A DNA stretch of 32,784 bases from a virus. Within the stretch, counting starts at the first letter, position 1. Each line of letters starts with the position of its first letter. Location: IMG/VR virus record IMGVR_UViG_3300042891_001333, positions 1 through 32,784 of that record. One strand, written 5' to 3'. The translations under genes and the position numbers were made by a program. The notes under the pieces are model-generated. The model was not told where the DNA came from, ran no database searches, and saw nothing but the letters and a program-made list of their open reading frames with translations. Below are positions 18,463 through 31,785 of the stretch, piece after piece.

Positions 18463-18590
18463 CAGTGAGCCTCCTAGACCCTGCGGCCAGCCCTGCCAGC
18501 CGAAAAAACCACCCGAAAATGCATGCGGAAGCGTGCTTGCTATGCCCGTCGGTCTTTTGGCTGGGCCGAGGGGGGACTCCCCCGGGGTGG
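18463..18590. other. Intergenic gap before terminase; possible packaging-site region
   Basis: 128 nt without a gene between the HNH nuclease and TerS. On the minus strand it has the inverted pair ACTCCCC/GGGGGAGT close to the HNH stop, the palindrome GCATGC, and a T-rich run (GGTGGTTTTTTCGG) before the TerS ribosome-binding site. Packaging sites of cos phages often lie near HNH and terminase genes, but I cannot identify a cohesive end from the sequence alone. Confidence 0.35.
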
Positions 18591-18905
18591 TCAGGGGAGT
18601 CGGCGGATGCCGGGGTGTGGTTCGGGGGGTCGTCGCTTCGCTGCGACGTACCGTGCGTGTCTTGCTGCTTGTGCTTGCTGCTGTGTCTCTTGCTTGTGGT
18701 GTGGTGTGCAGATCCACATGAGGACTTCGTCTCGGTGGTCCTCGGGGTCACCTGTGTGGTGGCACTCTGTGCCGGGCGCGGTGCAGCGTTGGCCGTTGGT
18801 GTCTTGCCATTCGCAGATGCCTTCGGCTCTCTTGCGTACGCGGGCTCTGCGTTGAGGCCAGTCGCTCGGGAGGGTTGAGCGTCGGTCGCTGGTGTGCCAC
18901 GCCAT
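18591..18905 (-). CDS. HNH endonuclease (terminase-associated)
   Basis: 104 residues from the ATG at 18905, which overlaps the stop of the zinc-ribbon ORF (TGATG) and has GGGAAG seven nt upstream. Motifs: SDWPQRRARVRKRAEGICEW, then C-AAPGT-like 'RCTAPGTECHHTGDPEDH' (Cys ligands and the HH of the HNH core), then NEV-like 'DEVLMWICTPHHKQETQQQA', where CTPHH is the usual closing Cys/His of HNH folds. HNH nucleases next to terminase genes are needed for packaging and cleavage in several long-tailed phages (HK97 gp74-type). A role with TerS/TerL is likely by position. Confidence 0.88.
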   Translation of the reverse strand: MAWHTSDRRSTLPSDWPQRRARVRKRAEGICEWQDTNGQRCTAPGTECHHTGDPEDHRDEVLMWICTPHHKQETQQQAQAARHARYVAAKRRPPEPHPGIRRLP

Positions 18906-19036
18906 CAGGTGTCTTCCCATGCTGGGTCGCAGCACTCAGCCGCGGCGAGCCTCGACGTGTACTGCGACTCGCAGACGGGGCATTCGAACACGTGCGGGTC
19001 GGCTTGCTCGGTGACGAGTCGTTCGATGTCGGTCAC
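18905..19036 (-). CDS. Tiny zinc-ribbon-like protein
   Basis: 43 residues. GTG start at 19036 overlapping the upstream stop (GTGA), stop overlapping the HNH start (TGATG). Sequence begins VTDIERLVTEQADPHVFECP and contains ECPVC followed after 15 residues by ECCD, a plausible four-cysteine metal site; it ends PAWEDT. The coupling on both sides and the codon use make it a real gene. Unknown function. Confidence 0.75.
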   Translation of the reverse strand: MTDIERLVTEQADPHVFECPVCESQYTSRLAAAECCDPAWEDT

Positions 19037-19197
19037 AGCAATGCCAGCCTTGCCTCGAGCAGGTGTTCGTCATTGTCATGCTCGGGGTGTTCGAGGAGGA
19101 ACCGGCCGATCGCGTCGAGCGCGTCACCCTTGTCTTTCGACTGGGCGCCGATGTGGTCGAGCATCGCGTCCGTGGTCTTCGGGATGTCGCGGACCAT
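19033..19197 (-). CDS. Small hypothetical protein, acidic and helical
   Basis: 54 residues, ATG at 19197 overlapping the upstream stop. MVRDIPKTTDAMLDHIGAQS, then KDKGDALDAIGRFLLEHPEH and a charged helix ending EARLALL. No Cys, no membrane segment. The longer frame upstream is a shadow of other sequence. Translationally coupled at both ends within the small-gene run before terminase. Function unknown. Confidence 0.65.
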   Translation of the reverse strand: MVRDIPKTTDAMLDHIGAQSKDKGDALDAIGRFLLEHPEHDNDEHLLEARLALL

Positions 19198-19307
19198 CAG
19201 TGGTGGTTCCTGTTCCGGTGCCACATGTACATGCGGTGCTGAACCTGGTACGGGACGAACGCGATCACCAGCAAGGTCACCACGAGTATCCCGAGCCTGC
19301 GGAACAT
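19197..19307 (-). CDS. Tiny membrane protein
   Basis: 36 residues, ATG at 19307 with a strong GGGAGG six nt upstream. It is a single hydrophobic helix (LGILVVTLLVIAFVPY, residues 5-20) followed by a basic, His- and Met-rich tail (HRMYMWHRNRNHH). It is the first gene after the 345-nt non-coding region, so it probably heads the late transcript. Topology suggests an N-terminal anchor with a cytoplasmic His/Arg tail. Function unknown. Confidence 0.65.
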   Translation of the reverse strand: MFRRLGILVVTLLVIAFVPYQVQHRMYMWHRNRNHH

Positions 19308-19574
19308 GACCGCCTCCCTTGCGGGGTGTGGTGTCCCGCCGCGCATCACAGCTCCTGGGGCAGGGCTTACGGACACCTCGGGCGGAACGCGATCCGCGCT
19401 GTGAGGCTCCGGTCTCGTGCGTGTAGGTGTGAGCGTGTGGCGGCGGGACAACCCAGACGACCGCCCCAACCTTGGGACGGATACCCTCAACCAGCACAGG
19501 CCGCGTGTCAGACGACTAGCCGGGAGGGGGAAGGATCCCGGGGTGCGGGGCACACGCTCCCCGGGAAGCACAAA

Positions 19575-19610
19575 CCCCGCAGAACCGGTTCTGGACACAG
19601 TTATGCGGGG
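19575..19610 (-). terminator. Candidate terminator with palindromic arm
   Basis: CCCCGCA...TGCGGGG inverted repeat, 7 bp, with the loop carrying the palindrome AGAACCGGTTCT, which could form an alternative 6-bp hairpin. It is followed by TTTGTGCTT on the minus strand. The palindrome itself could also be a repressor operator. Evidence is structural only. Confidence 0.4.
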
Positions 19611-19618
19611 ATGTGACT

Positions 19619-19624
19619 AGCATA
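19619..19624 (-). promoter_or_regulatory. Possible -10 element (TATGCT)
   Basis: Minus strand GGGTATGCTAGTCAC contains TATGCT, a common actinobacterial phage -10 hexamer, about 30 nt downstream of the last small gene of the early block and about 310 nt before the first late gene. No good TTGACA-like box is found 16-18 nt upstream (TTGCGT is 22 nt away). Low confidence. Confidence 0.25.
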
Positions 19625-19652
19625 CCCGATACCACGGGGTTACGACACGCAA

Positions 19653-19823
19653 TCACACTGACGGCGTGTCGCCATGCTCCAGTTCAGCCGATTCCTGAGC
19701 TTGCAAGAGGACCTGCCCGCCGTCGGCGCTGAGATGGTTCACGCAGCGGTCCTCACCAGCAACGACATCGTGCGCGACCCAGTAACCGCCCACCCCGCAT
19801 ACGGAACACGTCGGCCCGCTCAT
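19653..19823 (-). CDS. Small CxxC zinc-binding-like protein
   Basis: 56 residues, ATG at 19823 overlapping the upstream stop within the recurrent GGTGATCCGTCATGA junction. MSGPTCSVCGVGGYWVAHDV, then RCVNH. The arrangement C6-x2-C9 ... C27-x2-H30 is a classic CCCH metal site. The C-terminal part is acidic (QAQESAELEHGDTPSV). It is the last gene of the small-gene block and its stop abuts the hairpin-rich region. Probably a small nucleic-acid- or host-protein-binding adaptor; function unknown. Confidence 0.75.
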   Translation of the reverse strand: MSGPTCSVCGVGGYWVAHDVVAGEDRCVNHLSADGGQVLLQAQESAELEHGDTPSV

Positions 19824-20095
19824 GACGGATCACCCGGTATCTGGTCAAACCCAGTACAGGAGCATCGGGTGCATGCTCCGTCATATTCGAGAGGCGCGGC
19901 CCCGTGCTCACCGTGCTGGTGCAAGCAACCGCAGAGAGAACCATCCTGTACGCATCGGCATTCGCCAACCCACGGACATTCGTGGGCAGCGCCTAGATCC
20001 TTGATCTTCTCGACATGCGCGTCGAGACGGTCGAGGCCGCCGATTGTGCTGATCCGTAACCGCTCCATCGCGTCCCAGAGCGATTCGTCGCTCAT
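19820..20095 (-). CDS. Cysteine-rich small protein
   Basis: 91 residues from the ATG at 20095 (preceded by CAGGGAGC); the frame upstream to 20140 is shadow. N-terminal helix MSDESLWDAMERLRISTIGG, LDRLDAHVEKIKDLG; then a cysteine cluster ECPWVGECRCVQDGSLCGCL and HQHGEH, and CTRCSC near the end; nine Cys in total. Ends in the GDPS peptide encoded by the junction element. It looks like a double metal-binding knuckle after a helical N-terminus. Unknown function. Confidence 0.72.
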   Translation of the reverse strand: MSDESLWDAMERLRISTIGGLDRLDAHVEKIKDLGAAHECPWVGECRCVQDGSLCGCLHQHGEHGAAPLEYDGACTRCSCTGFDQIPGDPS

Positions 20096-20379
20096 GCTCC
20101 CTGTCCTTCCGGTTCCTGTGCCGCAACGACCTTCGCGCATCGTGGGCAGAACGTGAGCACGACATCGAAATCTGTGCTGGCGTCGTCATTTAGGCCATAG
20201 CAGACAAGCCACCCCGACTTCTTGGTGCCGACCCGCTCCCAGCGTCGAGGTACGGTGACGTCCGCACCGCATCCCATCAGACTCGGCATGCCGTCGCAGC
20301 GGTACTCGTATCCACCCTTCACCCGCTCCCCGATGCCATCGAATCCGCGCCAGCCGTTCGCGCGCGCTTCTGCACTCAT
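20092..20379 (-). CDS. Small zinc-ribbon-like protein
   Basis: 95 residues, ATG at 20379 inside a GGTGATCCGTCATGA junction. Two cysteine pairs: YRCDGMPSLMGCGADVTVPR and, near the end, TFCPRCAKVV, spaced like a treble-clef or zinc-ribbon fold, with WLVCYGL between. Begins MSAEARANGWRGFDGIGERV and ends EPEGQGA. Overlaps the next gene by 4 nt. Proteins of this type are frequent in actinobacteriophage early regions without assigned role. Confidence 0.72.
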   Translation of the reverse strand: MSAEARANGWRGFDGIGERVKGGYEYRCDGMPSLMGCGADVTVPRRWERVGTKKSGWLVCYGLNDDASTDFDVVLTFCPRCAKVVAAQEPEGQGA

Positions 20380-20582
20380 GACGGATCACCCGATTCCCTG
20401 TGGCGTATCCACTGGCGCCACGTCTGATCAGCCGCGCCGACTACCTCGAGACGCCAGCGCACCCCGAGGTAGTCGACCACGGTCCCAGTGCGCCGCCAGA
20501 AGGTCCGCCACCATGCTGGCGGCCTCGGTTCGCGACCGCGGTAGCGCGGCGGCGTGTAGATGACCTTCACATTCCCGCTCAT
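20376..20582 (-). CDS. Small basic protein, unknown
   Basis: 68 residues, ATG at 20582 in a GGTGATCCGTCATGA junction and ending in the same element (GDPS). Very rich in Arg and Trp: TPPRYRGREPRPPAWWRTFW, RRTGTVVDYLGVRWRLEVV, then ADQTWRQWIRHRESG. A beta-strand pair (VDYLGVRWRLEVVG) suggests a small SH3- or OB-like fold, possibly nucleic-acid binding from its charge. No family recognised. Confidence 0.68.
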   Translation of the reverse strand: MSGNVKVIYTPPRYRGREPRPPAWWRTFWRRTGTVVDYLGVRWRLEVVGAADQTWRQWIRHRESGDPS

Positions 20583-20917
20583 GACGGATCACCCGGTCGA
20601 TAGAGCACGCGGACAGGCGTGTACGTCGTCGCTTGGTCGTCGTCCAGGTCGTAACCCGGTCCCCAAATCGTGCGCCAGTGATATGTCAGGCTGTCCGTAC
20701 GGATGAATACGCGGCCGATCTCATCGCGGAGTATCGTCCCCTTGGGAAGTTGAGCGATGTCCTCGCTTGCGGTGTACTCCGACTGTTCGATCTCGGCTAC
20801 CAGCCCACGTATGACGCGCTCAAGCCGCCTCACCTCGGGCCACGTCACCTTCCAGCCCATCTCCGCCGCTATTTCACCGCCCGCAAGAGCGGCTCGCGCG
20901 TCGTCAAGGGCACTCAT
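20579..20917 (-). CDS. Small hypothetical protein
   Basis: 112 residues, ATG at 20917. Upstream junction is a variant of the repeated element (GGTGATCAGTCATG). N-terminal helices MSALDDARAALAGGEIAAEM and WPEVRRLERVIRGLVAEIEQ, then strands GTILRDEIGRVFIRTDSLTY, WRTIWGPGYDLDDDQATTYT and VRVLYRPGDPS. The alpha-then-beta order and acidic C-terminal half resemble many uncharacterised actinobacteriophage proteins. No catalytic motif seen. Confidence 0.7.
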   Translation of the reverse strand: MSALDDARAALAGGEIAAEMGWKVTWPEVRRLERVIRGLVAEIEQSEYTASEDIAQLPKGTILRDEIGRVFIRTDSLTYHWRTIWGPGYDLDDDQATTYTPVRVLYRPGDPS

Positions 20918-21156
20918 GACTGATCACCGGGTTCCGATTCGGTCAGTGCGACCATCTCGCCCGCGTCAATCTGACGCCGAGTCCACCACCGCATCGTGAA
21001 TCCGTGGCACTGTGGCCAGCCGGTACTCATGTACTCGCCGCGCGGTTCCTGGGTGCTACCGCACGTTTCGCAGCGGAGGATGCCGCCATGCTGCGGGACG
21101 ATACCTTCCACCGAATGCTGTAGTCCGCGCAATCGGCCAAAGAACTCAACGCTCAT
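20914..21156 (-). CDS. Small zinc-binding-like protein
   Basis: 80 residues from the ATG at 21156 (CAGGGAGC upstream). The frame extends upstream to 21444, but that part overlaps the preceding gene in another frame and is a shadow. MSVEFFGRLRGLQHSVEGIV, then RCETCGSTQEPRGEYMSTGW and PQCHGFTMRWWTRRQIDAG. C29-x2-C32 and C50-H51 could bind a metal. Ends ESEPGDQS, a variant of the shared C-terminal peptide. Confidence 0.7.
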   Translation of the reverse strand: MSVEFFGRLRGLQHSVEGIVPQHGGILRCETCGSTQEPRGEYMSTGWPQCHGFTMRWWTRRQIDAGEMVALTESEPGDQS

Positions 21157-21410
21157 GCTCCCTGCCACTCCGATCGGCGCTCGATGAAGATCGTGTGCGC
21201 CGGGTAGCCCCCGTTGCGCCCGACTGAGTGCACAGGCATTCGCATCCACCACGCGGCCAGGCGCGCTCCGATGAACGTGCGGCGAAAGATCGGCATGGTC
21301 AGCCGGGTGTTCCCGTACCGCACGACGTACGGGAATCCGTGGATGTCGGTATACCGGCGCTGATGCTTCGACGGCCGCGGTCGCCAGACGACTTCCTCCC
21401 GCTCGCTCAT
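21153..21410 (-). CDS. Small basic hypothetical protein
   Basis: 85 residues, ATG at 21410 in a variant junction (GGTGAGCCGTCATG). MSEREEVVWRPRPSKHQRRY, then YVVRYGNTRLTMPIFRRTFI, GARLAAWWMRMPVHSVGRN and HTIFIERRSEWQGA. Rich in Arg and aromatic residues with strand-like segments; no Cys. The C-terminus is encoded by the CAGGGAGCATGAGCG type of junction. Function unknown. Confidence 0.68.
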   Translation of the reverse strand: MSEREEVVWRPRPSKHQRRYTDIHGFPYVVRYGNTRLTMPIFRRTFIGARLAAWWMRMPVHSVGRNGGYPAHTIFIERRSEWQGA

Positions 21411-21565
21411 GACGGCTCACCAGCCGCCGGAAACAAGGCGTCAACCACTGCCGCAGCCAGTCGATTGTGGTACTGCCACACCGTCTCGCGACGCACGTCG
21501 TAGGGCCTTTGACTGCGAATTGCTCGCCGCCCTTCGTCTATGCGGCCGTCTCGCTCTGCGCTCAT
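21407..21565 (-). CDS. Small hypothetical protein, 52 residues
   Basis: ATG at 21565 within a perfect copy of the junction element, TGA overlapping the next ATG. MSAERDGRIDEGRRAIRSQR, PYDVRRETVWQYHNRLAAAV, VDALFPAAGEPS. Charged N-terminal helix followed by an Ala-rich helix (ETVWQYHNRLAAAVVDALF). Supported by coupling on both sides and GC-rich third positions. No function recognised. Confidence 0.7.
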   Translation of the reverse strand: MSAERDGRIDEGRRAIRSQRPYDVRRETVWQYHNRLAAAVVDALFPAAGEPS

Positions 21566-21729
21566 GACGGATCACCCGATTCGTGAGCAGTACGTTCGAC
21601 GGCCCAGACGATGCGAGCACGCGCTCTTTGAAGTGCCAGCGACTCCCGCCAAGGCAAGCGCATCTCAGGTGCCCACTGGCGTAGCGCCCTGAACTCGTCT
21701 TCCCTCAGTTCGACCGTGATCGTCTTCAC
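21562..21729 (-). CDS. Small ribbon-helix-helix-like protein
   Basis: 55 residues from the GTG at 21729 (GGGAGGTCCGGA upstream); the longer frame upstream is a shadow. VKTITVELREDEFRALRQWA, then PEMRLPWRESLALQRARARI, VWAVERTAHESGDPS. A single N-terminal strand (TITVELRE), then two helices separated by a turn, resembles Arc/MetJ ribbon-helix-helix DNA-binding domains, although the usual strand motif is only approximate. Could regulate the small-gene operon. Confidence 0.6.
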   Translation of the reverse strand: MKTITVELREDEFRALRQWAPEMRLPWRESLALQRARARIVWAVERTAHESGDPS

Positions 21730-21884
21730 TCCGGACCTCCCGGTCTCTGGAACGGGCCGGGCTGGCGTAGGCCGAGACTGAACTCGATCACTTGGTAGCC
21801 CTCCCGACGCCAAAACTCGGCGCGAGAAGCATCCACATACCAGTGGAGTACCTCGCCCATGTAAATCACGGCGTAGACGATCAT
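21726..21884 (-). CDS. Small hypothetical protein, 52 residues
   Basis: ATG at 21884 with GAGGAATC upstream, overlapping the preceding stop (ATGA). MIVYAVIYMGEVLHWYVDAS, RAEFWRREGYQVIEFSLGLR, QPGPFQRPGGPE. The strand-helix-strand start (VYAVIY...VEYQVIEFS) suggests a small ferredoxin-like or nucleotide-binding-like fold. The C-terminal PGGPE is encoded by the ribosome-binding site of the next gene. Unknown function. Confidence 0.7.
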   Translation of the reverse strand: MIVYAVIYMGEVLHWYVDASRAEFWRREGYQVIEFSLGLRQPGPFQRPGGPE

Positions 21885-22438
21885 GATGATTCCTCCGAAC
21901 CGAGTGCCGCTGAAACGGCGGACGCCTCAGCATCGAGCCGCGCCGCTTTGGCGAGCATCCATTCACGGAACTCGTGACGCTCGTCACGGGTCAGTTCCAC
22001 GTAGAGCGATTCGCCCGATACGGATCCGAACCACCGAAACAAGCCTCGCTTCCTATCGACGCTCACCGATGAAGGCGTGAACATTGGCCATCGACTCATG
22101 TCTTCGAGAACTCGCGCCCTCTGCCGTTTCTCGTCAATCTCGGCGATCTTCTGCCGCACGTCCTGCTCGGTCATTTCTCCTCCTGGGTACGGTTCGGGTG
22201 GTTTCGGCATCCGGCTTGTCTCGCACGACGGGCACCCATCGGCGAGGAGCGTAAGCGAAAGCACCGGCTGATCCGGTTGCTCATCGGCCTCCTCGTAGAC
22301 TCGGTGCCGCTCGGGGTATCCGCAGCTCGGGCAGGTCGCATCCGGCCTATCTGTAACCAACTGATAGCGATCCTCGGAGTTCCAGAAGTGGGTAACGAGG
22401 TCCTCCGCGGACGTCGTTCCGTCAGGAAGTGTGATCAT
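21881..22438 (-). CDS. Zinc-ribbon protein with probable internal start (two-module ORF)
   Basis: 185 residues, ATG at 22438 in a junction element. The first module (1-88) has TCPSCGYPERH and DGCPSC, two pairs for a zinc ribbon, ending PKPPEPYPGGE. There the DNA carries GAACCGTACCCAGGAGG, the same 17 nt that form the ribosome-binding site of the gene at 22845, followed by ATG (22174). The second module (89-185) would start MTEQDVRQKIAEIDEKRQRA and is charged and helical, then LFRWFGSVSGESLYVELTRD. There is no stop between the modules. Either one fused protein or a long and a short (97-residue) product is made. Confidence 0.75.
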   Translation of the reverse strand: MITLPDGTTSAEDLVTHFWNSEDRYQLVTDRPDATCPSCGYPERHRVYEEADEQPDQPVLSLTLLADGCPSCETSRMPKPPEPYPGGEMTEQDVRQKIAEIDEKRQRARVLEDMSRWPMFTPSSVSVDRKRGLFRWFGSVSGESLYVELTRDERHEFREWMLAKAARLDAEASAVSAALGSEESS

Positions 22439-22866
22439 GACGGATCACCCGGTTCGACCATGAACGTCACCGGCTTGCCGAGCGACCGCGCGTACGCAAT
22501 CTCGCGAGCCGTGGACTCGCCGTAGTATCCGCCGACGTTCACGACATGCACCCTGTCGGCCATGTCGATCTTCTGGAAGTGAATCCGGTCGAGCATCCGC
22601 TTCAGATCGCTGGCATCCGTCGTCCAGTCGTAGTCCGGCAGGTCCGTGTGACCGAACAGCCCGAGCGAGATGACGAGGTGACCCTCCATCGTCAGGCGGG
22701 CGTTCTCGGCGTTGATCGCGTCCTTGAACTTAGTCGACCCGCAAAGAGTGACCACCTCCGCGCGCGTAGCGCGCTCAGCGAGGCACCCTTCACAGAATCC
22801 CGCGTCGCCCGCGAAGTGTCCGGGGCCAGTGTGCCTGACGTTCATCGTTCCTCCTGGGTACGGTTC
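22179..22866 (-). repeat. Recurrent junction element C (GAACCGTACCCAGGAGG), two copies
   Basis: 17 identical nt at 22179-22195 and 22850-22866. The second is the ribosome-binding site of the DUF4406-type gene (22845). The first lies inside the 185-residue ORF, 5 nt before its internal ATG at 22174, which argues that this ATG is a used or former gene start. Confidence 0.85.
22435..22845 (-). CDS. Nucleoside 2-deoxyribosyltransferase-like (DUF4406-type) protein
   Basis: 136 residues, ATG at 22845 with AGGAGG. N-terminal CEGCLAERA knuckle, then VVTLCGSTKFKDAINAENAR, the G-S-T-x-F signature of the family, LTMEGHLVISLGLFGHTD, LDRIHFQKIDMADRVHVVNV and GGYYGESTAREIAYARSLGK PVTFM. The last segments match the conserved 'I..AD.V.VvN..gy.GeStarEI.yA...gKpv'. 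These folds bind or process nucleosides and nucleotides. Ends in the GDPS peptide. The protein may act on nucleotide pools or serve a counter-defence role; that part is inference. Confidence 0.82.
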   Translation of the reverse strand: MNVRHTGPGHFAGDAGFCEGCLAERATRAEVVTLCGSTKFKDAINAENARLTMEGHLVISLGLFGHTDLPDYDWTTDASDLKRMLDRIHFQKIDMADRVHVVNVGGYYGESTAREIAYARSLGKPVTFMVEPGDPS

Positions 22867-22889
22867 TGTTGGTTGGTGTACTTGGTCAT
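22842..22889 (-). CDS. 15-residue coupling micro-ORF
   Basis: ATG at 22889 overlaps the stop of the 237-residue gene (ACATGA) and its TGA overlaps the next ATG (CGATGA). Reads MTKYTNQQNRTQEER. The sequence contains the AGGAGG for the following gene. Likely a translational coupling device that keeps ribosomes moving across the 41-nt gap, rather than a functional peptide. Confidence 0.45.
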   Translation of the reverse strand: MTKYTNQQNRTQEER

Positions 22890-23599
22890 GTCGTTGCCGC
22901 CTCTCTCACGGTCTCGAGGTCGCTGGCGAGCTCACGCCCGGTCCATGTTGTCCCGCACGCCCTGCACCGGGCTGTCGCGTTCTGGAACGCCTCAGCCCCA
23001 TCCGTGGGCCGGTACGTGAGAACAAGAGGGTTGGTGCACCACTCCCTCAACCGGGTATCCCACCACACGGCCCTGCCCGTCACCGGGTCGAACCCCTGAG
23101 TGCAAGCCGGGTGCGGGCACGGGTCAGGTAGCGGGGCTTCCACGATCTCGATGTGGTCGCGGATCAGGTCAGCCCACCCACGAAGCTTCCCGATGTAGAA
23201 CGCTTCCGACGCGGGCTCGTGCGGGGTTCGCATGTACGCGACGTACCAGGCTTGAAGTTGGGTGGCCGCATCCGAGCGGCGGGGCGCCCCCGCTGTCCTG
23301 GCCCAGTCGCGGATCATCGCCGTGATACGGGTCATGTGCATCAGTGCGGTGGAGTCCAACATGCCCCGGGTGAACGCGAGGGACTGGCCTGTACCGTCCG
23401 TGGTTGTCATCTGCCCCCGCATGACGGCTTCCATCTGCACTAACAACGGGTCATGCGTGACCGTCCCGTTATGGGTGTGTGGCGCGACCGGGCACTCCGG
23501 GTCGCACAGGGGTGACATGTTCCCCGGAACACGTTGCCTCACCGTCTCCGTCGATGGTTTCGCCAGGACATCAACAGCATCCAGAAGCTCAAACCTCAT
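22886..23599 (-). CDS. Actinobacteriophage hypothetical protein with zinc motifs
   Basis: 237 residues, ATG at 23599 overlapping the upstream stop (GATGA). N-terminal LCDPECPVAPHTHNGT, a helical centre (DSTALMHMTRITAMIRDWAR; DAATQLQAWYVAYMRTPHEP; FYIGKLRGWADLIRDHI), then PDPCPHPACTQGF and C-terminal ARCRACGTTWTGRELASDLE. The C-terminal CRACG followed by WTG and a helix resembles a zinc-ribbon/HTH end; the middle is four-helix like. Proteins with this layout are common beside replication genes in actinobacteriophages. Possibly DNA-binding; no catalytic motif. Confidence 0.75.
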   Translation of the reverse strand: MRFELLDAVDVLAKPSTETVRQRVPGNMSPLCDPECPVAPHTHNGTVTHDPLLVQMEAVMRGQMTTTDGTGQSLAFTRGMLDSTALMHMTRITAMIRDWARTAGAPRRSDAATQLQAWYVAYMRTPHEPASEAFYIGKLRGWADLIRDHIEIVEAPLPDPCPHPACTQGFDPVTGRAVWWDTRLREWCTNPLVLTYRPTDGAEAFQNATARCRACGTTWTGRELASDLETVREAATT

Positions 23600-23862
23600 C
23601 GCCGGCCCCTCACTGCCGCCAGCCCGGCATCCCTGCGAACCGCTGCCACAAATCCGACGAGCTCCCCCGTCTGAGCAGCAACCTGAGCGTCCGTAAACCC
23701 GGCCCTCACGGCGGCGAGAATCACCTCTCTGCGCCCTTGTGGACGGATGACATGGTTGATCGCCGCGACGAGCACGTCCTCGACCGTGACGCCACGGTTA
23801 TCTGCTTCTGACGCGAGACGCCCCCACACGTTGACCGGGACCATCACCTGAACGGTTTCCAT
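23596..23862 (-). CDS. Small DNA-binding-like protein (RHH plus HTH pattern)
   Basis: 88 residues from the ATG at 23862 (GGAGG seven nt upstream); a GTG one codon earlier is possible. VQVMVPVNVWGRLASEADNR GVTVEDVLVAAINHV looks like a ribbon-helix-helix strand and two helices. Then GRREVILAAVRAGFTDAQVA AQTGELVGFVAAVRRDAGL reads like a helix-turn-helix (AGFTDAQVAAQTG). Overlaps both neighbours by 1-4 nt. Likely regulator or helper next to the replication initiator; family uncertain. Confidence 0.68.
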   Translation of the reverse strand: METVQVMVPVNVWGRLASEADNRGVTVEDVLVAAINHVIRPQGRREVILAAVRAGFTDAQVAAQTGELVGFVAAVRRDAGLAAVRGRR

Positions 23863-24581
23863 CACGCCACCTCCAGCGCTTTCTCATGGATGAACTGTTG
23901 AACCTCGAGCGGGCTCTTCGCTATCGCCCCGGTCACGTACCGTTGCGGTGCCGCTGGTGCGGTCTTCGCCTTGTCGAGGATCCAGAGCGCGACCTGCAGC
24001 GCCCCGTTCGCGTCTACCGTGAGGCCGGTGTGCCGGACGATCGCGTCGACCACTGAACGCAGGTTGCTCACCCCGCGGCGGGCGGCGAGCTTCCTCGTCA
24101 TCTCCGGGATCACTATCGGGTCGGTCGAAACTCGCGCGCGGTTACTACTGGACTGACTCTTAGAAAGTGAGTAGAAGTCATTGGCTTGGCTTGGACTGGA
24201 CTGGGCAGGTGTACCACCACCGTTAGTAACGTCGTTACCTTCGGTGTTAGTACGCCGTTTCTCCCGGTGTTTCGCAACCCGTTCACGAGTCGCCGCACGC
24301 TCCGCCTCAACCTGCTCACGGGTCCGCTGATACCTCGACCAGTCATGGAACCACCAGCAATTTTGACCGTCATCGAACACCCACAGGCCGGCCAGAACGA
24401 GAGCTGTAGCCGCGTCGTGGTCGCCGTCGAGGATCCTGAGAGTGCGGTTGGTCACCTTGCCGTCTGTGAGGTGCTTCGCGCAGTACGAGCCAGCACGAAC
24501 CCACAGGGCGACAGCGGTGGCGTCGAGCTCGAGCACCTTCGGGTGCGACCAGAACCCGTCGTCCACGTTGAACCACACCAT
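23862..24581 (-). CDS. Replication initiator-like protein
   Basis: 239 residues from the ATG at 24581, overlapping the HNH stop (TGATG); the frame upstream is a shadow. MVWFNVDDGFWSHPKVLELD, ATAVALWVRAGSYCAKHLTD, GKVTNRTLRILDGD: this opening is the actinobacteriophage winged-helix 'replication initiation/DnaD-like' family. A basic linker (RTREQVEAERAATRERVAKH, REKRRTN) and Ser/Gln-rich segment (TPAQSSPSQANDFYSLSKSQ) follow, then a C-terminal helical domain (RKLAARRGVSNLRSVVDAIV; PQRYVTGAIAKSP) like the DnaD/DnaB-II part. It would open the origin or load helicase; no helicase is seen in the window. Confidence 0.75.
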   Translation of the reverse strand: MVWFNVDDGFWSHPKVLELDATAVALWVRAGSYCAKHLTDGKVTNRTLRILDGDHDAATALVLAGLWVFDDGQNCWWFHDWSRYQRTREQVEAERAATRERVAKHREKRRTNTEGNDVTNGGGTPAQSSPSQANDFYSLSKSQSSSNRARVSTDPIVIPEMTRKLAARRGVSNLRSVVDAIVRHTGLTVDANGALQVALWILDKAKTAPAAPQRYVTGAIAKSPLEVQQFIHEKALEVA

Positions 24582-25006
24582 CAGCGGACCCCCACCCATT
24601 CGAGATGCCGTGCGATCTCCGCATCCGTCGCCGGTCGGCGTTCCCGGGAGGACAGCAGCATCCACCAGTCCCCGGCGAGATCCTGGACCGGTGTCGCGAG
24701 TGCCCGTTCGAGGGTTTTCGCGTGCGTCGCCGCGGGCCTGACGTACAAGCCGCGCTGCTCGAGCTCGAACAGGACGATCGCGTGCGCGTCGGCCTTGTCG
24801 CCGTTGCACCGCTCACACGCGGCGACCAGCACGCCGGGATGGTTGAGTAGGCGGCTGCCGCCAGCTTGCCGGTTCGCCCGGTGGTCCGTGGTGGTTGCTT
24901 CGCCCTGGCACCGGTTGAGTGCGAGGAGGCAGAAGTGTCCATCCCGCTCGATCACGGCATCCTTCACCACCCTGGGCGGGTGATTCACACCCCTACGCTT
25001 ATTCAC
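24581..25006 (-). CDS. HNH endonuclease
   Basis: 141 residues from the GTG at 25006, inside a 27-nt direct repeat; a GTG at 24988 is an alternative. VVKDAVIERDGHFCLLALNR, CQGEATTTDHRANRQAGGSR, VLVAACERCNGDKADAHAIV. Cys pairs (C..C and CERC), the DH core and the NGDKA closing helix are the standard HNH fold. The C-terminal helical region (LERALATPVQDLAGDWWMLL) ends HLEWVGVR. It lies between the HTH gene and the replication initiator. Stand-alone HNH proteins may be homing-type or serve replication/packaging. Confidence 0.85.
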   Translation of the reverse strand: MNKRRGVNHPPRVVKDAVIERDGHFCLLALNRCQGEATTTDHRANRQAGGSRLLNHPGVLVAACERCNGDKADAHAIVLFELEQRGLYVRPAATHAKTLERALATPVQDLAGDWWMLLSSRERRPATDAEIARHLEWVGVR

Positions 25007-25012
25007 GCCGCA
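24986..25012 (-). repeat. Direct repeat D, copy 1
   Basis: 27 nt identical to 26052-26078; minus-strand core GTGAATAAGCGTAGGGGTGT. This copy spans the stop of the HTH gene and the GTG start of the HNH gene. Confidence 0.9.
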
Positions 25013-26024
25013 CCTTGCAGCGGATGGTGTCGGCGATGCGACCGTCACTCCACCGCTCCCGGTGAAGCCGGCGCACGCATTCGCGGCGCTCTGCCGGGGT
25101 GAGCCGTGGCCCTTCGCCGGTGATCGCGAGTTCGATCGCGACCTCGTCGACGCTGCCGTCTTCCTCGTCAGGGACGGGGGGTTCCGTGTCGGTGTCGATG
25201 TCGTCCCACGCGAGTGGTGGGAGCCAGCGGCGTGCGGCCGCGTAGCGCAGGGTTCGGGTGTAGGCGATCTTGTCGCGGTGTGACTGCTGCGGTGGTTCCT
25301 GGTCCCACAGCTCGTCGAACAGTTCGACGACGGCACGGTGGGTGGCAGCGCCAACGAACTGGCGTTGCATCATGCCGCCGAAGTTGGCACGGTCCATCCC
25401 AAGCCGGTCCGCGAGTTTCGATTGGGACCAGCCTCGGGCGACGAGTGCCTGCAGGCGCCGGTGCGTTCCGCGTGACGGGACGGACTTTCGGGCGCCCAGG
25501 TTCTCGATGCGTGGCTCTACGGCGAGGATCTTCTCGGCCTTCTCCCGGCCGACTCGTTTCGGGATCTCCCCGTAGCGGGTGCCAGGTTCCTGACGTCCCC
25601 AGATCAGCTGTCGTACACCTGTGATGCCGACGCCGGCGAGCTGGGCGATGCGCTTGTAGCCGATGCCGTACTCGCTGAGCATCAGGATGTGCTCACGGAC
25701 CGGGGCGGCGTCGACAAGGCCGGTATCGAACCGCCCGTAAGCCTTCAGCTTCGATCGGCGGGTCTCACGAGCGTTGTGGTCCGCGACACAGTCATCGCAG
25801 CGGCATTGATGCTGGATGTAGCAGGTGGTTGCCTCGGCGTGCTTGTGGTCGGGTGGGCAGACGTAGTCATGCTTCTTCTGACGCGGCGGCAACGGTTCGT
25901 GTCGGGCGAGATCTCCGGCTTTCCATGCCGCCTGGTAGTGGGCGCGGCACAGTCGCCGCGCGATGCTTCGGCGTTCGCATCCGTCGTGGGTGCAGATGAT
26001 CTTGATGCCAGGTGTGGTGCTCAC
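24999..26024 (-). CDS. Large helix-turn-helix DNA-binding protein
   Basis: 341 residues from the GTG at 26024 with GGAGCAGGGAAC upstream; an in-frame GTG at 26072 would overlap the methylase stop and add 16 residues. N-terminus VSTTPGIKIICTHDGCERRS IARRLCRAHYQAAWKAGD is a Cys/His cluster of the kind in many actinophage HTH proteins; further cysteines at YVCPPDHKHAEATTCYIQHQ CRCDDC. Then HTH-like EYGIGYKRIAQLAGVGITGV RQLIWG and RGWSQSKLADRLGMDRANFG, and a C-terminal acidic region with TPAERRECVRRLHRERWSDG RIADTI, a third HTH-like unit. Possibly a multi-site regulator of early genes. Not a typical repressor. Confidence 0.8.
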   Translation of the reverse strand: MSTTPGIKIICTHDGCERRSIARRLCRAHYQAAWKAGDLARHEPLPPRQKKHDYVCPPDHKHAEATTCYIQHQCRCDDCVADHNARETRRSKLKAYGRFDTGLVDAAPVREHILMLSEYGIGYKRIAQLAGVGITGVRQLIWGRQEPGTRYGEIPKRVGREKAEKILAVEPRIENLGARKSVPSRGTHRRLQALVARGWSQSKLADRLGMDRANFGGMMQRQFVGAATHRAVVELFDELWDQEPPQQSHRDKIAYTRTLRYAAARRWLPPLAWDDIDTDTEPPVPDEEDGSVDEVAIELAITGEGPRLTPAERRECVRRLHRERWSDGRIADTIRCKVRRE

Positions 26025-26045
26025 GTTCCCTGCTCCATCCGTGTG
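26019..26045 (-). repeat. Direct repeat E, copy 1 (downstream of methylase)
   Basis: 27 nt matching 26822-26848 except one base (GTG start here, ATG there). Core CACACGGATGGAGCAGGGAA. It carries the ribosome-binding site of the HTH gene. Overlaps no other repeat but sits 6 nt from repeat D copy 2. Confidence 0.88.
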
Positions 26046-26051
26046 CCCCGG

Positions 26052-26078
26052 CACACCCCTACGCTTATTCACGCCGCA
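26052..26078 (-). repeat. Direct repeat D, copy 2
   Basis: 27 nt identical to 24986-25012. It spans the methylase stop (GCGTGA) and an in-frame GTG start candidate for the HTH gene, so both copies occupy the same type of gene junction. Confidence 0.9.
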
Positions 26079-26827
26079 TCACCGCCCTCGAAGATGAAGG
26101 TCTGCTGCGCCAGGCGCTGCGCAGCTGCGTGCGCGTAGTCCTCTCGCACCTCGAATGCGACGCAACGCCGACCCATGCTGCGCGCCGCTACGGCGGTAGT
26201 CCCGGACCCGGCGAACAGGTCCAGCACAAGCCCCCCCCTGGGCACGCTGTACTCGATCAGCGGGGAGACGATGCCCTCAGGCTTCTGCGTCGGGTGGATT
26301 GCTCTGCCGTGCTCTGACCGGACGTACTGCACCGACCTCATCAGGCGCGGCCCGCCGTCCTCGGAGCGGTACGCGGAAGCCTCGATGTGTCCGGTGTGGG
26401 TTGGGCGCGTCTTCCGGCGCACAGTGCGCGGTGTCGCGTCAGGTGTCGTCGGCGTGACATGATGCAGGTCTTCCCACTCGCCGCGATACCAGAGCACTGC
26501 CAGCTCGTGCACCCGCTTGAAACGGTCGGCGTGGAACCCTGACCCGTTGTGCTTCTCCCACACGATCTCCTGCGACAGCTTCCAGTGAGCGAACTCGTCG
26601 GCGTTGTCGTGGAACATGCGGAACGACCCGAAGCACCACATCGCGTTCGTGATTTTCGCCGCCTCAGACGGCCACCCCTTCGGCCACTGATCCCACTCCA
26701 GGGATGTCTCCCCATACGGCGGATCAGTGATGATCGCCGCCACATCCATCTCCTGCAGCCACTCGAACTGGTCCTGCCACCTTCCGTGGTGAAGCTGCAC
26801 GTACTCGTCTTCGTAGTACAGGCTCAT
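26069..26827 (-). CDS. DNA methyltransferase (beta-class, N6-adenine or N4-cytosine)
   Basis: 252 residues, ATG at 26827 with GGAGCAGGGAAC. Order: catalytic TDPPYGETSLEWDQW (motif IV, DPPY) near residue 36-50; a variable middle that can serve as target recognition domain (WEKHNGSGFHADRFKRVHEL to the HTGHIEASAYR segment); HPTQKPEGIVSPLIEYSVPR; then VLDLFAGSGTTAVAARSMGR (motif I, AdoMet binding) near 207-226, and RRCVAFEVREDYAHAAAQRL. Motif IV before motif I is the beta-class order. No restriction partner next to it, so a solitary phage methylase that may protect DNA from host restriction. Flanked by 27-nt direct repeats. Confidence 0.93.
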   Translation of the reverse strand: MSLYYEDEYVQLHHGRWQDQFEWLQEMDVAAIITDPPYGETSLEWDQWPKGWPSEAAKITNAMWCFGSFRMFHDNADEFAHWKLSQEIVWEKHNGSGFHADRFKRVHELAVLWYRGEWEDLHHVTPTTPDATPRTVRRKTRPTHTGHIEASAYRSEDGGPRLMRSVQYVRSEHGRAIHPTQKPEGIVSPLIEYSVPRGGLVLDLFAGSGTTAVAARSMGRRCVAFEVREDYAHAAAQRLAQQTFIFEGGDAA

Positions 26828-26848
26828 GTTCCCTGCTCCATCCGTGTG
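26822..26848 (-). repeat. Direct repeat E, copy 2 (upstream of methylase)
   Basis: 27 nt matching 26019-26045 with one mismatch. Encodes the C-terminal RMEQGT of the upstream gene and the ribosome-binding site and ATG of the methylase. Confidence 0.88.
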
Positions 26849-27057
26849 ATGTCGGCGGCGTACTCGCGATCTCCGGGTTGCGGGTCGAGCATCAGACCAG
26901 CGGGAGCCACAGACCAGTCGAAAGCCCGCGCATGCGCCCCATCTGCCCGCAGGACCGCAGCGGCCCGCATGACCCCTTCGGGCGTGGAATCCGCACCGGC
27001 CTCAACCCACTTCCCGGACTTGAGGACACCTACCCCGTAACGCAATGGGAACCTCAT
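26824..27057 (-). CDS. Small hypothetical protein
   Basis: 77 residues, ATG at 27057 (GGAGAGG upstream). MRFPLRYGVGVLKSGKWVEA, then STPEGVMRAAAVLRADGAHA RAFDW, and a C-terminal MLDPQPGDREYAADITRMEQ. Strand-helix-strand pattern with no Cys. Its end, ADITRMEQGT, is similar to the end of the neighbouring gene (RADIERMERS), because the junction DNA is repeated. Function unknown. Confidence 0.72.
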   Translation of the reverse strand: MRFPLRYGVGVLKSGKWVEAGADSTPEGVMRAAAVLRADGAHARAFDWSVAPAGLMLDPQPGDREYAADITRMEQGT

Positions 27058-27482
27058 GACCTCTCCATCCGTTCGATGTCGGCGCGGAGCCGCTTCATGA
27101 TCCGGTCCAACTCCGCGACCCGGGCCACGTTCGTGTCGGACAGGTGCGACCGTTGCGCGCGCACCACCGAGCCGTGCATGGACCCGCCTACCGCGGCACG
27201 GTCAGCCACGGGGGACGCGGTGCGGCGCGCGTACTCCGCTTCCGCAGCCTCAAGCTGCACCCGCCACCCGGGGAGCTTCGAACGGTTGCGTTCACGCCAC
27301 CGGGCCTCCGCCGCCTCACGCTGCACCTTCTCTTTCGCAAGGCGTTTCTTCTGCCGCTCCAACTCGATCCCGTAGTGCTTCGCGCAATGAGCGGAGAGGT
27401 AGACCTCGGCCCCGCAGAAGTGACCCTTGGCGTCCGATCCGCGCGCGACGACAACGCGATCACAGGATGGTTCAGCGCACAT
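27054..27482 (-). CDS. Zinc-binding protein with coiled-coil region
   Basis: 142 residues from the ATG at 27482 (GAGGAG eight nt upstream), overlapping the RecT gene by 11 nt; the longer frame to 27593 is a shadow. MCAEPSCDRVVVARGSDAKG HFCGAEVYLSAHCAKHYG: C2, C7, C23, C34/H37 make a treble-clef-like metal site. Then strongly charged helices (ELERQKKRLAKEKVQREAAE ARWRERNR; VQLEAAEAEYARRTA) and a C-terminal helix ending RADIERMERS. Possibly a nucleic-acid-binding accessory to the recombination genes; unproven. Confidence 0.72.
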   Translation of the reverse strand: MCAEPSCDRVVVARGSDAKGHFCGAEVYLSAHCAKHYGIELERQKKRLAKEKVQREAAEARWRERNRSKLPGWRVQLEAAEAEYARRTASPVADRAAVGGSMHGSVVRAQRSHLSDTNVARVAELDRIMKRLRADIERMERS

Positions 27483-28308
27483 TGCTCGGCTCCTCTGCTC
27501 CACCAGCAACACGCGCCTCAAGCGGATCCCCAACACCAGGCTCCACCGCGTCACCGACGACGAGCCCTTGCACGCCTTCGATGGACCGGACAACCTGCCC
27601 CTCGTCTTCGACCTGCCGCATCACCTGGATCGCGAGACCGAACTCTGTCGACTTCGGGAGGTACGGGGACACTTCCCGGACAAGGGTCTTGCGGGCCATC
27701 TCCTCCTCATGCGTCTTCCACGGCCCCCGATCCCACTTGTCGGGGCGGCGGGCGAGGATCTTCTCTTTCGGGAGGGTTTCCCACACCACACCGCCGCCGC
27801 TGATCTGCGCCGTGACTACGGCGTCAGTCCACGGGCGGGTGGATTCCCGGTCGGCGGGTTTCCAGTCGAAGAATCGGCCCCGTTCACTGTTCGCCCCGTA
27901 CTCGAAGTAGTCGCCCTCACGGACCAAGAACGTCTCCACCCGGAGGACCCGCCCGGAACGGTACGCGAGCTCGATGAGCCCCTGATATCCGACGATCGGG
28001 ACGCACACCCATGTGCCGTGCTCACGGCGGGGGGTGAGCCAGAAGTGCCCCAGCGCTGAACCGATCTCAAGCTTCAACTGGGCGGCGAGCATGATCGACC
28101 CGAGCACCGAATCCGCTGTCGCCTGCTGCAGGTACTCGGACTTCTTGATCTCACTGATAGCCGCGCGGACGAACGCGCCTGAGTTGAGCGTGCCGGCGAG
28201 TTGCGCTTCGATCGCGGCCTGCTGCCGGTGCACCAGGTCCATGACCGTCGGTGTTTTGCCCTGGCGTTCCTGCGCGGCCACAGCCGCGTTACTGAGGTCC
28301 GTGCTCAT
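27472..28308 (-). CDS. RecT-like single-strand annealing protein
   Basis: 278 residues from the ATG at 28308, overlapping the exonuclease stop (TAATG). The frame continues upstream, but inside the exonuclease gene. Body: VMDLVHRQQAAIEAQLAGTL, FVRAAISEIKKSEYLQQATA DSVLGSIMLAAQLKLEIGSA LGHFWLTPR, VPIVGYQGLIELAYRSGRVL, EGDYFEYGAN, RKTLVREVSPYLPKSTEF. 'A..LkLeig...G..ylvP', 'GYkGl..Lar.sG.v' and 'R...k.lplS.e...A' correspond to the conserved RecT core. Together with the exonuclease it forms a two-component homologous recombination system for phage DNA. Confidence 0.93.
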   Translation of the reverse strand: MSTDLSNAAVAAQERQGKTPTVMDLVHRQQAAIEAQLAGTLNSGAFVRAAISEIKKSEYLQQATADSVLGSIMLAAQLKLEIGSALGHFWLTPRREHGTWVCVPIVGYQGLIELAYRSGRVLRVETFLVREGDYFEYGANSERGRFFDWKPADRESTRPWTDAVVTAQISGGGVVWETLPKEKILARRPDKWDRGPWKTHEEEMARKTLVREVSPYLPKSTEFGLAIQVMRQVEDEGQVVRSIEGVQGLVVGDAVEPGVGDPLEARVAGGAEEPSNVR

Positions 28309-29240
28309 TACTGCTCCTTGGTCTTTGTGCGGCGCAGCACCCTGAACGGCTGCCCAACCGTCGTGAACTGTTGCGCAAGATCCGGGTACGCCTCCCGGAA
28401 CGCCTTCTGATCGAACCCGGCGCGGCCCTTCTGCTGCCGCCACGTCGCGACCTTCACCCCGTCATGGGTGAGGGTGTCTGCTGCGCCGACGTACTGGCCG
28501 AGCACGACCTTGAGGGCATCGCGCTCTTCGGTCTGCGCTTGAATGTCCGAGTTCAGGACCGTGATCCGCTCGAGAGTGTCGAACGCCTGCTCGGACAGTT
28601 CGATCTCCGTCCCGTCTGTGACGATCGCGTTGACCTCAGCGAGCGTCGACACGGGAGGCTCAACCTTTGCGCGCACGTGCCCGTCCCACATGCTCATGGC
28701 GGCGGGTACGAGGTGCTCTCGGATGAAGCGATCATCGCGAGGCTCCCAGTACAGACGGGTTTCGCGACCGCCAATCCACACGACCACTGCCGCCCGCGGT
28801 GTGCCAGCCACCGCCATCTCAGCTTGTACTTGAACTCGTATCTCAGTGGGAATGCCCTCGTCCCACTGATGCCCGGAGAACGCTGACGAAGTCTTGAACT
28901 GCCACGTCAGAAACGGCGCAGAAGAGACGCGATCAAACGAAGCATGCAGGAATGGCCACTCCACCGATCGAGCCATAAAGCCAGGCTGAAGTTTGATATC
29001 CAGGCCAGAAAACTGCTCCACCCACTTGTGGATGATGTGCTCTGACTCGTGGCCGTAGAACGCGAGTTCAGCGGGAAACGGGCGGTCGACGCCCATCTTT
29101 GACTTGTAAACATCCAAGGGCGTCATGTATGAGCTAAGGCCCATTACGGCTGCCATTTCCGAAGCGCCAATGCTCCTACGACGCTCCTCCTGCCACGCGG
29201 GCGTGTCGGGAACCACGTCTACTCGCTCGAACGCGCTCAC
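28308..29240 (-). CDS. YqaJ/lambda-type exonuclease (RecE-like partner)
   Basis: 310 residues, GTG at 29240 overlapping the HNH stop. Motifs: RRRSIGASEMAAVMGLSSYM TPLDVYKSK (YqaJ entry), FYGHESEHIIHKWVEQFSGL, FLHASFDRV (the conserved Asp), LTWQFKTSSAFSG and EIRVQVQAEMAVAGTPRAAV VVWIGG (Q..Q...a.aG), RFIREHLVPAAMSMWDGHV. The usual ExK of the PD-(D/E)xK core reads QFK here. The C-terminal part is helical and charged and ends RTKTKEQ. Resects double-stranded ends 5' to 3' and hands ssDNA to the RecT-like protein encoded next. Confidence 0.9.
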   Translation of the reverse strand: MSAFERVDVVPDTPAWQEERRRSIGASEMAAVMGLSSYMTPLDVYKSKMGVDRPFPAELAFYGHESEHIIHKWVEQFSGLDIKLQPGFMARSVEWPFLHASFDRVSSAPFLTWQFKTSSAFSGHQWDEGIPTEIRVQVQAEMAVAGTPRAAVVVWIGGRETRLYWEPRDDRFIREHLVPAAMSMWDGHVRAKVEPPVSTLAEVNAIVTDGTEIELSEQAFDTLERITVLNSDIQAQTEERDALKVVLGQYVGAADTLTHDGVKVATWRQQKGRAGFDQKAFREAYPDLAQQFTTVGQPFRVLRRTKTKEQ

Positions 29241-30614: not shown

Positions 30615-31015
30615 GCCGTCACCGCTGCGATGACCAGCCACACGAGCACGACACCCACAAGCCCGGTGACGGCAATGGTGGCCCAGAAACGGGAGTCCCG
30701 CCGCAACGGGCGCATGTGCACCCCGCCGACCGCGGCTGATGCCGGTACGGGGAGGTACTTCTGTCTGGCTTCGGGGAACTCGCACCAGCAGCACGCGCCA
30801 CCCATGTCCGCCCGCTGCTCCGTCACACGACCCTCGGTCAGGGGAACCCACACGCCCCCATCCCAGTCCGTGTACGACTGACGACCCGGGACGATCAGGT
30901 TCGCGATGCTTGAGGGGACGCACCGGTCATCCAACGACGTGAAATGCGTCACATCCACCAGGGCGTCACCCTCGAACCGACCCAGGTACATCCTGGTTTT
31001 CGTTTGCTCCGTCAC
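30611..31015 (-). CDS. Tail-anchored membrane protein
   Basis: 134 residues, GTG at 31015 overlapping the solenoid gene stop (GTGA). VTEQTKTRMYLGRFEGDALV DVTHFTSLDDR, a central WVPLTEGRVTEQRADMGGAC CWCEFPEARQKY (ACCWC pair), and one C-terminal hydrophobic helix RFWATIAVTGLVGVVLVWLV IAAVTA (about 110-134). Topology suggests an N-in, C-terminal single-pass anchor. The CCxC could bind a metal or form a disulphide. Function unknown. Confidence 0.72.
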   Translation of the reverse strand: MTEQTKTRMYLGRFEGDALVDVTHFTSLDDRCVPSSIANLIVPGRQSYTDWDGGVWVPLTEGRVTEQRADMGGACCWCEFPEARQKYLPVPASAAVGGVHMRPLRRDSRFWATIAVTGLVGVVLVWLVIAAVTA

Positions 31016-31785
31016 TTCGACACCTCCGCCCAACGCGCGATCGTGGCGTTCCCCAGACGCTTCAACGCCCGGTACTGCTCCATCCACAAGTCCTGCGTAA
31101 GCTCATCCGCCCGCCACGACTCCCGGCGTCGCTTGACCTCCGCCATCAGCGTCCCGAGCGTCCCCGTCCAACACCCCACCGCGAGGATGTGCTTCCCGTT
31201 CTCGGTGCGGAACACCGTCGCAACGACACCTTCCGACCCGATCGGGTCGACAGCGATGTAGTGCCACGTCTTCTCAACCCGGGCGTTGCCGGAGACCTGG
31301 GCGTTGCCGGAGACCCAGGCGTTGCCGGAGACCCAGGCGTTGCCGGAGACCTGGGCGTTGCCGGAGACCCGGGCGTTGCCGTAGACCCGGGCGTTGCCGT
31401 AGACCTGGGCGTTGCCGGAGACCCAGGCGTCGCTGTAGACCCGGGCGTTGCCGGAGACCTGGGCGTTGCCGTAGACCTGGGCGTTGCCGGAGACCCAGGC
31501 GTCGCTGTAGACCCAGGCGTTGCCGGAGACCTGGGCGTTGCCGGAGACCTGGGCGTTGCCGGAGACCTGGGCGTTGCCGTAGACCTGGGCGTTGCCGTAG
31601 ACCCAGGCGTTGCCGGAGACCCGGGCGTCGCCGTTGGTCAGCTCGGACGACTCGATCCATCCGCCGAGATCGCCCTTTCGGATGCCGTGTCGGGGGATGT
31701 CGCGGGTCGCGCGGATCTGCCGCACCGTGTACCCGTGGATGTTGACCTTTTCGAGCCCGGTGAACTCGTAACTTTGCTCCGTCAT
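31012..31785 (-). CDS. Hexapeptide-repeat (beta-solenoid-like) protein
   Basis: 257 residues, ATG at 31785 (AAAGGGC upstream). Layout: an N-terminal domain of about 52 residues (YEFTGLEKVNIHGYTVRQIR; GDLGGWIESSELTNG); 20 hexapeptides (residues 53-172) of the form [N/D]-A-[QWR]-V-[SY]-[GS]; then a C-terminal domain (YIAVDPIGSEGVVATVFRTE; GCWTGTLGTLMAEVKRRRES; WMEQYRALKRLGNATIARWA). The repeats fit a left-handed parallel beta-helix (hexapeptide-repeat, polymer-forming type): Ala and Val alternate inward, Asn/Gly at turns. The length of about 6.7 coils would give a rod. Function unknown; a scaffold, binding rod or transferase-like fold are options. The N-terminal IRKGDLGGWIE pattern is also seen in phage and bacterial hexapeptide proteins. 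Confidence 0.88.
   Translation of the reverse strand: MTEQSYEFTGLEKVNIHGYTVRQIRATRDIPRHGIRKGDLGGWIESSELTNGDARVSGNAWVYGNAQVYGNAQVSGNAQVSGNAQVSGNAWVYSDAWVSGNAQVYGNAQVSGNARVYSDAWVSGNAQVYGNARVYGNARVSGNAQVSGNAWVSGNAWVSGNAQVSGNARVEKTWHYIAVDPIGSEGVVATVFRTENGKHILAVGCWTGTLGTLMAEVKRRRESWRADELTQDLWMEQYRALKRLGNATIARWAEVSK
31270..31629 (-). repeat. 18-bp tandem repeat (20 units) inside the solenoid gene
   Basis: Minus-strand unit GGCAACGCCCAGGTCTCC and close variants. Codons for Asn, Ala, Val and Gly are nearly invariant. Variation is at the third codon of the unit (CAG, TGG or CGG for Gln, Trp or Arg), TCC versus TAC (Ser or Tyr), and two units with AGCGAC in place of GGCAAC. The hexamer group VYSDAWVSGNAQVYGNA occurs twice, 72 nt apart, suggesting duplication of a 4-unit block. 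Confidence 0.95.

Follow-up and report, generated by a model that had tools for sequence, protein, structure and literature searches.

Two adjacent genes of a phage genome, coding for a DNA methylase (MTase) and a regulator-like HTH protein, have short direct repeats at their ends, raising the question of whether each is a cassette bracketed by its own pair of repeats, as the original prediction had it, or whether the repeats have another origin. The analyzed stretch of DNA (hereafter, the window) is a virus record of 32,784 bp that carries terminase and tail genes and has its non-structural half on the minus strand; its source is an actinobacterial phage. On the coding strand, the order is RecE-like exonuclease, RecT, g27054, g26824, e2, MTase, D1, CCGGGG, e3, HTH, D2, HNH, and RepA, the individual features being:

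28308..29240 (-), RecE-like exonuclease (YqaJ; PF09588 and phrog_434)
27472..28308 (-), RecT-type annealing protein (PF03837, E 9e-33)
27054..27482 (-), g27054, hypothetical protein, syntenic with L007 and present too in G412/G414
27063..27084 (-), e1, weak E copy (22 nt, 91%) at the 3' end of g27054
26824..27057 (-), g26824, 77 aa, no known family, its 3' end being e
26828..26848 (-), e2, exact 21-nt E core, in-frame end of g26824, abutting the MTase ATG
26069..26827 (-), DNA methylase (N6_N4_Mtase; PF01555, E 6e-31), 252 aa, full length
26052..26078 (-), D1, MTase tail and stop, then first HNH codons, with no gene after it
26046..26051 (-), CCGGGG filler, 6 nt, linking D1 to e3
26025..26045 (-), e3, exact 21-nt E core, orphan, abutting the HTH GTG start
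24999..26024 (-), HTH gene (phrog_1590), GTG start, C-terminal part truncated at D2
24986..25012 (-), D2, with the HTH stop TAA (24999-25001) inside the HNH 5' end
24581..25006 (-), HNH endonuclease gene (phrog_740), GTG start inside D2
23862..24581 (-), RepA-like replication initiator (phrog_2447)

Rfam and tRNA scans of the region returned no matches.

The repeats themselves are as originally described: repeat D at 24986-25012 and 26052-26078 is identical (27/27), repeat E at 26019-26045 and 26822-26848 has one mismatch (26/27), and the degenerate third copy of E claimed one junction upstream is present at 27063-27084. The exact core of E (e) is 21 nt long (CACACGGATGGAGCAGGGAAC) and ends immediately 5' of both start codons, so that the sole mismatch of E is the A/G difference between ATG and GTG. 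Both D (27 nt) and the E core exceed chance, since 200 Markov-1 versions gave longest exact repeats of 14-20 nt when modeled on the whole window and of 10-16 nt as 4-kb local versions. Short sequence identity is placed exactly at gene boundaries (27/27 in D, 21/21 in e). The leader e, common to the MTase and HTH genes, corresponds to the 3' terminus of the gene before: g26824 finishes its coding sequence in e2 (ITRMEQGT, then the stop), and e3 is the end of no gene. The trailer D, equally common to both, is the MTase tail with the first HNH codons; in D1, the MTase tail and stop (GDAA-stop) are followed by the opening HNH codons without an HNH gene behind. D1 and e3 jointly make up an orphan 44-nt spacer between the two genes (26025-26068). 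The placement of the repeats at stop/start junctions accordingly stands as regards their location at gene junctions, but D1 and e3 are not full stop/start junctions. Likewise, the notion of two repeat pairs, each bracketing its own cassette, is right about repeats at junctions but runs against the shared leader and trailer of the two genes.

The ends of the two genes differ in character. The MTase of a relative (L005) ends in FIFPEGDAA and a stop, with CGCGTGA, ahead of a different downstream gene; with the same GDAA ending and CGCGTGA standing before another gene, the C-terminus of the window MTase is, by this comparison, native. Repeat D2 holds this MTase tail (TGCGGCGTGA), though the gene upstream of it is the HTH gene rather than the MTase. 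The HTH start is the GTG at 26022-26024, in agreement with the homologue L083 (MSTTPGIKI), and an open reading frame starting at 26072 is an artefact. At its other end, the window HTH reads IADTIRCKVRRE up to the stop, the protein ending in KVRRE where D begins. The five homologues that align through the C-terminal region (L266, L267, L268, L270, and G003) run 24-30 residues past the last aligned residue (e.g., TVLRIRQELGL...). Judged against these, the HTH gene lacks about 25-35 codons at its junction with D, although C-terminal length varies in the HTH family, as L265 and G004 terminate even earlier than the others. The picture of the HTH gene as a clean, intact cassette is not supported, given this truncation.

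Given that e lies directly 5' of the start codon and D at the stop of the MTase and HTH genes alike, we propose that the locus is probably a single gene slot that occurs as a tandem pair, each copy holding a different gene. The MTase tail in D2, behind the HTH gene, indicates that the D2 junction derives from an MTase-HNH junction; since e3 repeats the leader of the MTase, the most economical interpretation has the HTH gene replacing the MTase from the start codon to the last codons. Two relatives offer support: in G003, the HTH gene occurs upstream of HNH and RepA genes of the same PHROGs as in the window (phrog_740 and phrog_2447), and in G002, the MTase is positioned between g27054 and HNH. 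The slot common to the relatives is only approximate, because the HTH-HNH gap of G003 is ~0.65 kb and other genes separate the MTase from HNH in G002. The ancestral order would have been g26824-e-MTase-D-HNH-RepA, with the HTH gene taking the place of the MTase either in the genome of a sibling phage or in one copy of the slot after its duplication. The left join would have formed at the start codon, directly after e, and the right join would have truncated the HTH gene, fusing the remainder to the last MTase bases, possibly through TGCGG microhomology. Both forms would then have been linked by one illegitimate event (D1-CCGGGG-e3), the six bases CCGGGG being present in neither flank, with the copies of e (21 bp) and D (27 bp) persisting as direct repeats. 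If this order of events, which we infer, is right, the locus seems to preserve the former occupant of the slot beside its successor, making the order readable.

Annealing between the repeat copies, probably by the RecE/RecT proteins of the phage, would yield an HTH-only or an MTase-only phage with frames intact. The expectation that one crossover deletes a whole gene and keeps the starts and stops of its neighbors was reproduced in silico for both pairs, with recombination between the e copies losing 803 bp (the MTase) and between the D copies 1066 bp (HTH); both products keep the g26824 stop, the MTase stop, and the start and length of HNH. The RecT and the RecE-like nuclease are encoded directly upstream of the slot region. 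Rad52-like recombinases have been proposed as drivers of phage mosaicism, and Redbeta is reported to need a pairing segment of at least 23-27 bp, compared with 31-34 bp for RecA (PMC3945230). The length of D would fit about the Redbeta-type pairing requirement, and the exact core of e (21 bp), slightly under the reported length, would be a marginal fit; action of the RecT on these repeats is inferred.

The clean products in silico also suit an insertion, whereby the HTH gene (as D-x-e-HTH) or the MTase (as e-MTase-D-x) entered the junction by one homologous crossover and duplicated it; indeed, the order e-M-D-x-e-H-D formally equals the single-crossover entry of a D-x-e-HTH circle at D. We nevertheless consider such an insertion unlikely: the D and e of the donor would have to include the MTase tail and the g26824 end, respectively, so that the donor would already come from the same slot, the HTH gene is truncated at D, and both the free form and a single-copy relative are unseen. 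A genome with a gene absent and one copy of D or e left was sought without success, as were genomes with only e-MTase-D-HNH or only e-HTH-D-HNH, in a set without a close relative spanning the locus, so that this absence shows little. Exact scans of viral contigs for D and E gave no matches, the four matches to a relaxed 18-nt e core all lay away from gene junctions, and comparison with annotated phages gave nothing or 17-nt matches of chance quality. Searches with the MTase and the window DNA recovered relatives of single genes, all of which have other junctions, and D and e were not found at the junctions of other or related phages.

Other junctions of the window carry repeats of their own. 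Most of its long direct repeats originate in a gene at 31012-31785 (-), with many in-frame repeats and a YdcK beta-solenoid (PF18836). Outside this solenoid gene, the exact direct repeats of at least 17 nt can be grouped into four families (D, E, F, and G). Their copies are located at start codons or immediately 5' of them, the exception being one G copy (22178) that falls in frame within a predicted gene; the repeat of a fifth family, H, measures 15 nt in the window. Family F (CGGGTGATCCGTCATGAG) includes GGTGATCC, which is complementary to the 3' end of 16S rRNA, and ATGA as stop/start. Its seven window copies (with up to two mismatches) precede the starts of several unrelated genes at 22438, 21565, 21410 (two mismatches), 20917 (two mismatches), 20582, 20379, and 19823, the junctions spanning 19820-22453 (-) and the exact copies ending the upstream gene in GDPS-stop. 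The exact 18-mer occurs in 12 stretches of a viral collection, where the upstream frame ends in GDPS-stop and a new frame opens at ATG, except in L218, whose downstream frame is closed five codons in, and L214, which has a short upstream frame; our conclusions on F use this 18-nt pattern, as a 16-nt pattern mostly adds chance matches. With up to three mismatches, F is found in nine other contigs (G409, G410, G412, G413, G414, G002, G411, G415, and G004), a biased survey given that most contigs were fetched for carrying F. It is absent at that threshold from Appa, Constance, RootBeer, G003, G005, and G006, and was not found in 400 Microbacteriaceae genomes. Families G and H are common to the window, G409, and G410. 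One copy of G (GAACCGTACCCAGGAGGA), at 22849-22866 (-), precedes the start at 22845, and the other, at 22178-22195 (-), is in frame within the open reading frame 21881-22438; two genes may be fused in this frame, or it may contain a hidden internal start.

Such families bear on the reading that the repeats are merely translation signals held alike by selection, comparable to the start-associated sequences (SAS). These are asymmetric repeats with Shine-Dalgarno cores, 5' of the start codons of unrelated non-structural genes in cluster K mycobacteriophages and cluster EF Microbacterium phages, and those of cluster K have been suggested as recombination targets (PMC3203893, PMC7302621). Families F and G, with strong Shine-Dalgarno cores, resemble them, as does e in part (two exact copies and one weak one), e abutting both start codons with GGAG and AGGG elements; SAS and ESAS being known from cluster K and EF phages lends this reading a precedent. 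Unlike SAS, F also covers the last codons (GDPS) and stop of the upstream gene, D is not an SAS, and by inspection e, D, F, G, and H all differ from the 13-bp SAS consensus forms GGGATAGGAGCCC and GGGAAAGGACCCC. As the main explanation, translation alone is improbable and was rejected: D is mostly the MTase 3' end with HNH 5' coding sequence, its D1 copy starts no gene, ribosome binding leaves 27/27 identity including coding sequence unexplained, and D and e are missing from the junctions of related phages.

The window being a virus contig record, coexisting strain variants (e-MTase-D and e-HTH-D) could also have been fused head to tail in assembly. The same virus is also represented by another contig, L084, which is 100% identical to the window in the 6192 compared bases (window 18584-24775). 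It ends close to the locus, stopping inside HNH with its last shared base at 24775, 211 nt short of D2, so that the locus lies outside its span; this break was possibly caused by strain variation at the locus. An artefact of this kind is nonetheless very improbable, as the D1-CCGGGG-e3 join has six bases from neither flank that an assembler would not invent, and reads should therefore span it. We give next to no weight to a dedicated recombinase acting site-specifically at D or e, and reject an integron-like cassette with an integrase and an attC-type site after each gene: exact 27-bp direct repeats do flank one gene, and the D1/e3 join forms a perfect 6-bp hairpin (GTGTGC-CGGG-GCACAC), but this is absent at e2 and D2, and no integrase domain was found in the part of the window proteins scanned.

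The proposed arrangement of one slot present twice, with an old and a new occupant, has partial counterparts in other phages. In Island3 (gene 68) and Brujita of the cluster I mycobacteriophages, the 3' end of a gene repeats that of the upstream gene over ~50 bp, and recombination between the repeats was proposed to add or remove the gene (PMC3029335). The end of g26824 similarly resembles that of g27054, whereas a relative lacking the gene is known only there, and only here do two genes share leader and trailer. In LRRHood and Cali (cluster C1 mycobacteriophages), extra genes lie between 29-bp direct repeats located at gene ends, and relatives retain a single repeat copy (PMC3029335); unlike that case of four genes and 1.35 kb, the present one has single genes in tandem, and a single-copy relative was not found. 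The short conserved junctions and the RecT-type protein of the phage also recall the homologous recombination at short conserved boundary sequences, with Rad52-like recombinases, in phage mosaicism (PMC3029335, PMC3945230); for the present locus, such recombination is predicted from the sequence. The locus hence fits as a further example of the known gene swapping at short conserved gene junctions or start-associated sequences.

Most phage mosaic boundaries are without shared sequence, and illegitimate recombination is therefore usually assumed. The shared junction families make it possible to test concretely whether gene exchange, too, is guided by conserved translation junctions. For F, ~91% homology over 159 bp between two other phages (L210 5111-5269 and the reverse complement of L213 11455-11613) begins at the motif and spans one small gene (MRDQCYRRGW...), the upstream genes being unrelated; by this alignment, F marks the exact edge of one gene exchange. 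Cassette-like gain and loss at conserved junctions thus finds support in F; D and e were not found to recur at junctions in other phages. It is possible, if tentative, that in this actinobacterial phage group the non-structural region consists of small genes set between a limited stock of shared junctions (F, G, H, D, and e) that would act both as ribosome-binding stop/start sites and as RecT landing sites, allowing cassette-like exchange of one gene without an integrase. For 13 of the 77 short homology blocks, the left end coincides with a gene start in the two genomes alike, where joint random shifts would give 1.5, with gene starts taken from a simple finder checked on Constance and the pairs of relatives not being independent. 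Another start-proximal patch is a 44-nt match of L246 (G412 8416-8459), 95% identical to the first codons of the window MTase, the rest of the methylase having diverged. Separately, L007 has its own junction repeat (GCAGGCGGTGACGCATGA; ~5330-5350 and 5748-5766), which flanks its g27054 homologue on both sides.
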